Origin: Chitinophagales bacterium
GTDB taxonomy: Bacteria > Bacteroidota > Bacteroidia > Chitinophagales > S012-47
Assembly (NCBI GenBank): GCA_026981615.1
Contig: JALSIH010000015.1
Span: 1 to 33,387 of the forward strand
Length of the DNA stretch: 33,387 nucleotides
Direction of reading: 5' to 3'
The notes under the pieces were generated by a model, which worked only from the letters and a program-made list of their open reading frames with translations, was not told where the DNA came from and made no database searches. Positions within the stretch are counted from its first letter, which is position 1. Each line of letters starts with the position of its first letter. A program made the position numbers and the translations under genes. This document shows positions 25 through 3,128 of the stretch, piece by piece.

Positions 25-134
25 CTTCCCGAGCACCATCCAACAGAACAAGGATTGAAACAGGAAAGCAGCCGTGCAGCGGCCCGGGTGCAGTTCGCTT
101 CCCGAGCACCATCCAACAGAACAAGGATTGAAAC
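25..134 (+). CRISPR. Distal end of a CRISPR array (two repeats, one full spacer)
   Basis: Two identical 37-base repeats lie at 25-61 and 98-134, starting cttcccgagcacc and ending ggattgaaac; the base before each repeat is also a shared G. They enclose one GC-rich spacer at 62-97. Bases 1-24 would be the end of another spacer whose repeat lies outside the window. No third repeat follows 134, so the array ends here. The ending ATTGAAAC resembles the 8-base crRNA 5' tag of type I-B and type III systems. That implies transcription on the plus strand with the leader and probably the cas genes to the left. The terminal repeat shows no decay. No cas gene is visible in the window, so the type assignment is an inference. 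Confidence 0.88.
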
Positions 135-687: not shown

Positions 688-1394
688 CTATTTTCCCGCC
701 TGCTCCATCGTTCGTTTGAGCAGCGATGCGTAAATGGGCCGGTTGCCCATCATCGTTGTAAATACAGCCGCACTGACGGTGGTGATGATCAGCGGCAGTA
801 TCAACTCGTAATTGGAAGTCATTTCCACCGCCAGGACAAGGCCCGTGAGCGGGGCCCTGACGGTGGCCGCAAAAATACCCGCCATGCCGGCTACGGCAAA
901 GACGCCCGGTTGCTGAATGATCTCAGGATAGAAATGTGCCGATAAAGTGCCGAAGATCATCCCGAGAATGAGGCCCAGCGTTATGATCGGAGCAAAAATG
1001 CCTCCCGGGGCACCGGTGCTATAGCTGAAAATAGACAGAAAAAGCCGTGCTGCAAAGATGAGCAACAGTTGATAGATAAAAAATGAATCACTGAGAACTT
1101 CCTCTATCAGATCGTAGCCGCCTCCGATGAGCTGCGGATAAAAGATACCGGTAAGCGCAATGATCAATGCGGCCAGCAGACCTGTAAGCATCAAAGGTAT
1201 GCGCTTCGAGCCCCTGAAATAATCGAGAAAAAAGAGCAAGCCCCTGTTATAAAGAAAGCCGATCCCGGCAAGCCCACCAATAAGCCAATGACAAGCGCAT
1301 GAAGCAGCAAGCGGAAGTTCTTTGTCTTTTTGGTGAAGGAAAAACGGGGGTCTTTTCTCCAGCGTGCAGCAGATTTCTTAAAATATGCCTTCAT
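688..1394 (-). pseudogene. Truncated and frameshifted ClC-type chloride channel / H+ antiporter
   Basis: The two open pieces (1191-1394 and 688-1239) together match only the second half of a ClC protein. Visible signatures are SGGGY-like IGGGYDLI, the anion-selectivity motif GAPGGIFAP, AGMAGIFAATVRAPLTG and the conserved EMTSNYELILPLII. The usual family length is 400-470 residues. Here the first half, including the GSGIP and GREGP anion-binding motifs, is absent. The helix-J region starts correctly (HALVIGLLVGL) in the upstream frame, then needs a one-base shift near 1275-1282 to continue as an NRGLLFFLDYF-like stretch in the downstream frame. With half the pore missing and the frame broken it cannot make a normal channel. 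A sequencing indel could explain the frameshift but not the missing half. An intact-looking -7 element sits upstream at 1478-1485. Confidence 0.82.
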
Positions 1395-1477
1395 AAATTC
1401 CTGATTCCATCCATCTCAGCCCGGCAAGCGCGCTCCCGATTCGCAGCTCTGCAACCGGTTGGTGCATTATTCCGCAA

Positions 1478-1623: not shown

Positions 1624-2526
1624 TTGCAGTACAAAAAAAAGCCGCTGTCGGAGATGAAGCATAAAAGACGCAACTTGAAAGACCGGATGATTGAGATCGT
1701 AAAAGCCAACGGGGAGAGGGAAATCTACCACGAAAGCAAGCTGGCCGATTCCCTGCGAAAGGCGGGTGCTTCGGAAGACTTTACGGAGCGAATTCTGGAT
1801 GAAATAGAGGACCAACTCTATGACGGCATCAGCACAAGGGAGATATACCGGAAGGCCTTCCGGCTCCTGAAAAGCCACTCGCGCGCCATGGCTTCCCGCT
1901 ATGAACTGAAAAAGTCCATCATGGCCCTGGGCCCGGCCGGCTACCCTTTTGAAAAGTTCATTGGCGAACTGCTTCGCAATCAGGGTTTCCGGGTGCAAAC
2001 CGGTATCCTTGCAGAAGGACAATGCGTGACACATGAGATTGATGTGATTGCCGAAAAGAACAGCGTTCAACGTATGATCGAATGCAAGTTTCATCATCAG
2101 GCCGGCAACATCTGCAATGTAAAAATCCCCCTTTACATTCAATCGCGTTTTCTGGACATCAAAAAGAAATGGGAAGAGCAGGATGCCAGCGGCAGAAAAC
2201 GCTTCGAGGGCTGGGTGGTCAATAATACCCGCTTCAGCGAAGATGCCATCCAGTATGCCCGCTGCGTGGGCCTGCATCTGCTGAGCTGGGACTATCCGGC
2301 CGAAAACAGCCTGAAAAAACAAATCAGCTACTCAGGCCTCTATCCGGTCACCTGCCTCACTTCGCTGCGAAAATCCGAAAAAAAGGAATTGCTGCACCGC
2401 GACCTGGTATTGTGCCGGCAGCTCTGCGAAAAGCCCGGAGTACTCAGGGAGATCGGTATCTCCGAAGCCCGCAGCCGCAATATCCTGTCCGATGCCAAAG
2501 CCCTCTGCCATGCCATGAAGGGATGA
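1624..2526 (+). CDS. ATP-cone / PD-(D/E)XK (Mrr-like) nuclease fusion protein
   Basis: Residues about 22-107 look like an ATP-cone, the nucleotide-sensing domain of ribonucleotide reductases and NrdR (IEIVKANGERE, then KLADSLRKAG, GISTREIYRKAF). Residues about 108-185 look like a restriction-endonuclease-type fold: a helix with Glu110/Glu115 (FEKFIGELL), then EID (Asp140) and ECK (Glu153, Lys155). This is the E...D...ExK layout of active PD-(D/E)XK nucleases of the Mrr branch. The last 60 residues are helical with a possible helix-hairpin-helix (REIGISEARSRNIL). Starts at 1654 and 1687 are also possible; the ATP-cone begins just after the latter. It stands alone, between the ClC remnant and the RDD gene. 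A nuclease controlled by (d)ATP is an inference; targets are unknown. No methyltransferase or specificity subunit is nearby, so a classical restriction-modification system is unlikely. Confidence 0.85.
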   Translation: MQYKKKPLSEMKHKRRNLKDRMIEIVKANGEREIYHESKLADSLRKAGASEDFTERILDEIEDQLYDGISTREIYRKAFRLLKSHSRAMASRYELKKSIMALGPAGYPFEKFIGELLRNQGFRVQTGILAEGQCVTHEIDVIAEKNSVQRMIECKFHHQAGNICNVKIPLYIQSRFLDIKKKWEEQDASGRKRFEGWVVNNTRFSEDAIQYARCVGLHLLSWDYPAENSLKKQISYSGLYPVTCLTSLRKSEKKELLHRDLVLCRQLCEKPGVLREIGISEARSRNILSDAKALCHAMKG

Positions 2527-2636: not shown

Positions 2637-3128
2637 TCATCCTTCGGCAGGCGCAACTTCGACCTCTTTGGCAAAGTCAAGTGAAATAACGGGGATATAA
2701 TAATAATAACTGCCTGTCATGACATTGTGCAGGGTATTCCCCTTGCGATTAAACAAGAAATACAGATACCCGATGCCTAAAACAATTCCGAAGAAAAACT
2801 TCAACAGGAATCTTTTATTGGCCTCTCCGCGGGTCAGCCGTGCTCCGTTTTCCTTCAATACTGCCAGTTTAAAGAGGCGCTTTCCGGGAGTCGTGCCATA
2901 TTTGCTCAGGAAAAATACATCATAGGCCCACCAGATGAAAGCCGGAAAGAGATAGACGAGGCTGATGAAAAGATAGTAGTTGTAATATCCCGCCAAAGCC
3001 GATAGAATGAAAAATCCGCCAAGCAGCGGGATGCTTGCCAGATAAACAATAAGCAAATCCGGAAAGAAACTCGCTGCAAGCCGTATCAGGGTGCTTGCAT
3101 TTTTCAAATTAACTGTTTTCCATTCCAT
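2637..3128 (-). CDS. RDD family membrane protein
   Basis: A 163-residue protein with three or four hydrophobic segments. It has the RDD signature: an Arg/Asp pair in the first helix (RLAASFFPDLLI, about residues 16-27), a second-helix Trp-Asp (WWAYDVFFL) and the GTTPGKRLFKLAVL loop (about residues 79-92). Family members are small integral membrane proteins of mostly unknown function; some are proposed Na+/H+ or solute transporters. The conserved third segment (LLKFFFGIVLGIGYLYFLFN) and the HNVMTGSYYYY ending fit the family. It is convergent with the ATP-cone nuclease, with about 110 bases between them, and upstream bases 3129-3328 carry no strong promoter or terminator. The function cannot be read from the sequence. 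Confidence 0.85.
   Translation of the reverse strand: MEWKTVNLKNASTLIRLAASFFPDLLIVYLASIPLLGGFFILSALAGYYNYYLFISLVYLFPAFIWWAYDVFFLSKYGTTPGKRLFKLAVLKENGARLTRGEANKRFLLKFFFGIVLGIGYLYFLFNRKGNTLHNVMTGSYYYYIPVISLDFAKEVEVAPAEG

Follow-up and report, generated by a model that had tools for sequence, protein, structure and literature searches.

An ATP-cone/PD-(D/E)XK protein of the AF1548-like family as a candidate adenine-nucleotide-gated endonuclease of stress-related gene neighbourhoods

The structure of the protein AF1548 from Archaeoglobus fulgidus (PDB 1Y88) was released in 2004 under a deposition title that gives its function as unknown, and no report of a measured activity for any member of the family was found in the literature. 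The literature matches to AF1548 were mostly unrelated accessions, and nothing was found for an ATP-cone combined with Mrr, with a nuclease and CRISPR, or with a beta-lactamase and a stress protein. ATP-cones are known as evolutionarily mobile domains (PMC9110341), and the residues K50 and K62 of the ATP-cone protein NrdR of S. coelicolor contact nucleotides (PMC9110341; PMC12176259).

The window, i.e., the whole stretch of DNA analysed here (33,387 nucleotides from a Chitinophagales bacterium), contains a gene for which a first-pass annotation had proposed an ATP-cone-like N-terminus, an intact E...D...ExK nuclease core and a helical tail. All three parts were recovered (Table 1). The profile search that the annotation had suggested gave scores above the Pfam cut-offs for the ATP-cone (PF03477, 28.4 bits against 25.8) and for the Mrr catalytic domain (PF04471, 24.6 bits against 21), the latter with its catalytic residues intact. 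The score of the AF1548-like C-terminal domain was slightly below the cut-off (PF22357, 23.7 bits against 23.9); despite this, the domain was assigned on the basis of a fold match and of an alignment with 1Y88 that extends to residue 294. AF1548 (1Y88) was also the top match among solved structures (E = 8.6e-34, residues 112–294). In an alignment of 40 homologues with identity down to 31%, the residues E110, D140, E153 and K155 of the nuclease core were invariant, and so were the lysines K27 and K39 of the ATP-cone. The Pfam and 1Y88 alignments, together with this conservation, suggest that E110, D140, E153 and K155 form one catalytic site.

Table 1. Features of the window around the ATP-cone nuclease gene (residue numbers refer to the 300-aa reading)
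Feature	Position	Strand	Details
ATP-cone / PD-(D/E)XK (Mrr-type) / AF1548-like_C protein	1654–2526	+	about 290 aa from ATG 1654 (279 aa from ATG 1687)
ATP-cone domain	1693–1878	+	residues 24–85; PF03477; fold matches; K27 and K39 invariant
Mrr_cat nuclease core	1942–2097	+	residues 107–158; PF04471; E110, D140, E153, K155; fold matches
AF1548-like C-terminal helical domain	2341–2505	+	residues 240–294; PF22357; 1Y88 alignment
Two CRISPR-DR7 repeats, end of CRISPR array	25–134	+	Rfam; repeats 25–61 and 98–134; contig end
Decayed ClC chloride-channel gene	688–1406	-	Pfam Voltage_CLC; codons 56–260 missing; pieces in different frames
RDD-family membrane protein, convergent neighbour	2637–3128	-	Pfam RDD 3.7e-21; synteny kept in same-genus genome

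Structure prediction, which had likewise been suggested, led to a confident AlphaFold2 model (pLDDT 93.5, pTM 0.87). A fold search with this model returned AF1548 (E = 1e-15; TM-score 0.82 by target; 192 aligned columns covering most of the AF1548 chain), followed by the ATP-cones of NrdR and ribonucleotide reductase (RNR), which support the ATP-cone assignment, and by PD-(D/E)XK nucleases including Can2, MspJI and EndoMS. The architecture is already known: its PD-(D/E)XK core with the catalytic residues places the protein in the AF1548-like nuclease family (PDB 1Y88), which is uncharacterised, and its full-length relatives already carry the annotation "ATP cone domain-containing protein". The C-terminal domain presumably resembles the helix-hairpin-helix or Rad51 N-terminal-like folds.

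The reading frame 1624–2526 (+) is unbroken, as had been stated, but the TTG at 1624 that had been taken as its beginning is probably not the start codon. The equivalent TTG of L040, a relative from the same genus, lies outside the frame of the gene, while the equivalents of the ATG codons 1654 and 1687 have stayed in it. In addition, the homologues mostly start near residue 22 of the 300-aa reading. Taken together, this points to a protein of about 290 or 279 aa. The sequence TTAATTTGCAGT is located at positions 1619–1630, just 5' of the nuclease gene, and is conserved in L040. It shows a loose similarity to a -7 promoter element of Bacteroidota.

The distance between K27 and K39 is the same as that between K50 and K62 of S. 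coelicolor NrdR. The conservation of these nucleotide-phosphate lysines allows us to assume that the ATP-cone likely binds nucleotides. The glutamate of NrdR that contacts the base (E56) is matched by E33 in the window protein, but only 17 of the 40 homologues have this match, and the position of NrdR R51 is occupied by Ala or Ser in most homologues; therefore, discrimination between ATP and dATP cannot be assumed. The ATP-cone serves as an ATP sensor in other proteins, and nucleotide gating of the nuclease is our best inference. The protein could also be a NrdR-like nucleotide-sensing, DNA-binding regulator that uses the nuclease fold for binding only, given that the NrdR ATP-cone is among the top fold matches and that the ATP-cone of the nuclease is the only one detected in the window genome (94% complete). 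However, the four catalytic residues would not be expected to stay invariant in homologues with identity down to 31% if the protein were non-catalytic, and this function is considered highly improbable.

The first-pass annotation had noted a decayed gene and a CRISPR tail in the surroundings and no methyltransferase partner, and these points were borne out. Rfam recognised two CRISPR-DR7 repeats, and the decayed gene was identified as a ClC chloride-channel gene. In L040 the latter is intact and encodes 453 aa, whereas the window copy consists of two pieces in different frames, without codons 56–260. L040 carries five CRISPR repeats at the position of the two in the window, and its ClC and nuclease genes come in the same order. 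A second contig of the L040 genome overlaps L040 at 98.8% and runs on into RDD and glycosyltransferase genes, so the order CRISPR–ClC–nuclease–RDD is kept within the genus. A partial second copy of the nuclease gene in this genome was considered as a paralogue and was ruled out, since it is the same contig overlap.

The fusion of an ATP-cone and a nuclease is not peculiar to the window locus and is spread over many phyla. A match to the nuclease was found in 49 of the 296 genomes of a phylum sample, in 9 of 41 relatives and at 50 loci of the GTDB collection. The fusion occurs in Bacteroidota, Balneolota, Patescibacteria lineages, Chlamydiota, Nitrospinota and Acidobacteriota, as well as in one gammaproteobacterial and one archaeal (thermoproteotal) metagenome-assembled genome. 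Two plasmids, from Pontibacter and Criblamydia, bear a homologue. No homologue was found in viruses, either among 50,697 phage records or in IMG/VR.

To describe the surroundings of the homologues, open reading frames were called and clustered in 112 loci and in the window, and near-identical loci were merged, which gave 97 locus groups. Pfam and PADLOC tallies were made on the same two sets, namely 140 genes near the nuclease and 140 more distant genes. The first-pass annotation had seen a plausible logic for phage defence in the domain combination and a hint of an accessory locus in the position next to the CRISPR array, and had proposed a survey of neighbourhoods for defence genes. The survey did not bear this out, and the defence reading failed by the refuting condition that the annotation itself had set: PADLOC revealed no enrichment of defence families in the near set compared with the distant one across the 97 loci. 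A scan for repeats covered 113 loci and gave hits in L040, L063 and the window, of which the one in L063 proved not to be a CRISPR array once its sequence was read. CRISPR adjacency was found in 1 of the 97 distinct groups and is confined to the genus of the window; the relatives mostly adjoin genes for stress and nucleotide recycling and not for virus defence, so the array beside the window gene is probably a coincidence. An anti-phage effector, cutting DNA once infection disturbs the ATP/dATP balance, would agree with the resemblance of the nuclease core to Can2/CARF-PDDEXK and ZorD, with the patchy distribution in the phylum sample and with the array in this one genus. Such a role is nevertheless unlikely in view of the surroundings without defence enrichment, the single CRISPR-adjacent group and the kind of partners that recur.

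The recurring partner is a beta-CASP protein with the domains Lactamase_B, Beta-Casp and RMMBL. In 34 of the 93 groups that have a following gene, the beta-CASP gene comes immediately 3' of the nuclease gene and shares its strand; in 38 of 97, it is no more than three genes away. The median distance over all cluster members is 5.5 bp. The beta-CASP gene is often accompanied by genes for thymidine/AMP phosphorylase, PRPP synthetase, PPK2, universal stress proteins, HSP20 and metal-transport ATPases. A beta-CASP, thymidine/AMP phosphorylase or PRPP synthetase gene was found within three genes of the nuclease in 40 of the 97 groups and not at the window copy; the salvage link is absent from about 60% of the groups. 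Beyond beta-CASP, the recurring neighbours of the nuclease encode universal stress proteins, HSP20 and P-type ATPases, together with 2-hydroxyacid dehydrogenase and CDGSH proteins. In the Pfam tally, the near set contained 13 Beta-Casp, 7 Usp, 4 HSP20 and 3 thymidine phosphorylase domains, versus 3 Usp domains in the far set, where the other three were unlisted (at most 2 each). Mapped onto a tree of 90 homologues, the linkage requires 14 changes, of which well-supported branches force at least 10; the linkage is therefore clustered, yet it did not arise in a single event.

The Pontibacter and Criblamydia plasmids share the order nuclease – beta-CASP – thymidine phosphorylase – PRPP synthetase. 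In a Fulvivirga island with the nuclease, PPK2 is found along with an NDH2-type dehydrogenase and a GAPDH-family protein. The nearest kin of the window locus, L041 and L045, are without beta-CASP and have a kinase-like gene directly 3' of the nuclease and an NDH2-type dehydrogenase gene nearby; L041 additionally has a metal ATPase gene near the nuclease. An FNR/CRP-like box with 9 of 10 matches was present in 7.8% of the leaders, compared with 3.7% for other genes and 3.0% for shuffled sequences, which corresponds to few cases, and no FNR-type box clearly stood out 5' of the homologues. Some related genomes encode, two genes 3' of the nuclease, a putative glucoamylase that has an N-terminal ATP-cone of its own (L090:1241–2776, L091:9185–10720).

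The partner genes also occur together without the ATP-cone nuclease. Beta-CASP, thymidine phosphorylase and PRPP synthetase are found together on Legionella and Acidovorax plasmids that do not carry it, and near one another in Agrobacterium; the setting of the partner genes without the nuclease includes phosphoketolase-type genes, PPK2 and metal ATPases. Long stress/energy islands of Fulvivirga (L042:110–20643) and of the Acidovorax plasmid (L161:1669–19063) have a common gene set, namely PPK2, metal P-type ATPase, beta-CASP, thymidine phosphorylase, PRPP synthetase and a GAPDH-type gene. In Bradyrhizobium diazoefficiens, the genes bll3117-3116-3115, annotated as thymidine phosphorylase, PRPP synthetase and MBL hydrolase, are induced by microoxia (PMC6515984), and this operon is FixK2-dependent (PMC9104804). 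By its annotated functions, the operon appears comparable to the partner set of the nuclease.

The nuclease gene of the window genome is solitary and is not in an operon with beta-CASP or salvage partners. This genome encodes a beta-CASP protein of the linked type (46% identity to the query) on another contig, where its gene adjoins DnaJ-type, thioredoxin-type and ClpB-type genes, as judged by sequence and cluster matches. A search with one query protein did not find a thymidine/AMP phosphorylase in this genome. No ATP-cone was detected in its RNR large subunit (G000:C187:1593–3197).

The best explanation of these data, to which we assign a probability of about 0.5, is that the protein is an adenine-nucleotide-gated endonuclease acting in a nucleic-acid-recycling module at times of stress. 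The nuclease would cut nucleic acid, probably DNA, and the cutting would be tuned through the binding of adenine nucleotides (ATP or dATP) to the ATP-cone, perhaps via changes of the oligomer like those of NrdR and RNR. Its usual setting would be islands for stress and low energy, in which it may break down or recycle nucleic acid beside the beta-CASP nuclease and nucleotide-salvage enzymes, a role chiefly other than that of an anti-phage weapon. For the window organism, where the partners are not in an operon with the nuclease, we infer this role. It can be suggested tentatively that the nuclease, beta-CASP, AMP/thymidine phosphorylase and PRPP synthetase constitute one system that digests nucleic acid to rebalance nucleotides or energy as oxygen or ATP declines, and that this module spreads on plasmids and islands. 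A nuclease of DNA repair or recombination, specific to a structure or to damage, is a rather doubtful alternative; its ATP-cone would couple cutting to dNTP supply, and it would reside in stress islands for repair after stress. It would be in line with the similarity to EndoMS and Hjc-like proteins, the helical C-terminal domain and the stress proteins among the neighbours, but no recurring family of recombination or repair was among the neighbours listed, and the commonest partner is the beta-CASP protein with its RMMBL domain.

The reading as an adenine-nucleotide-gated endonuclease provides the AF1548 family, solved yet uncharacterised, with a testable role, and the recurring pairing with beta-CASP and salvage genes points to energy-linked nucleic acid turnover under stress rather than to phage defence. 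The window protein has the nuclease core and the C-terminal domain in common with AF1548, whereas 1Y88 contains no region corresponding to the ATP-cone, since the solved chain is 199 aa long and the match begins at residue 112 of the query. The proteins of Pontibacter actiniarum (WP_237151220.1) and Criblamydia sequanensis (WP_176454803.1) show 47–49% identity over 91–94% of the window protein; their genes, unlike the window gene, are lined up with those for beta-CASP, thymidine phosphorylase and PRPP synthetase. Like the CRISPR ancillary nucleases Can2/CARF-PDDEXK, the window protein has a nucleotide-binding domain before the PD-(D/E)XK core. However, Can2 was solved with cyclic tetra-adenylate, while the sensor of the window protein is an ATP-cone, and no association of the window nuclease with type III CRISPR was seen. 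The ATP-cones of NrdR and RNR share with the window protein the fold of the N-terminal domain and two lysines at the spacing of NrdR K50/K62, but the output domain is a Zn-ribbon in NrdR, a barrel in RNR and a nuclease in the window protein.
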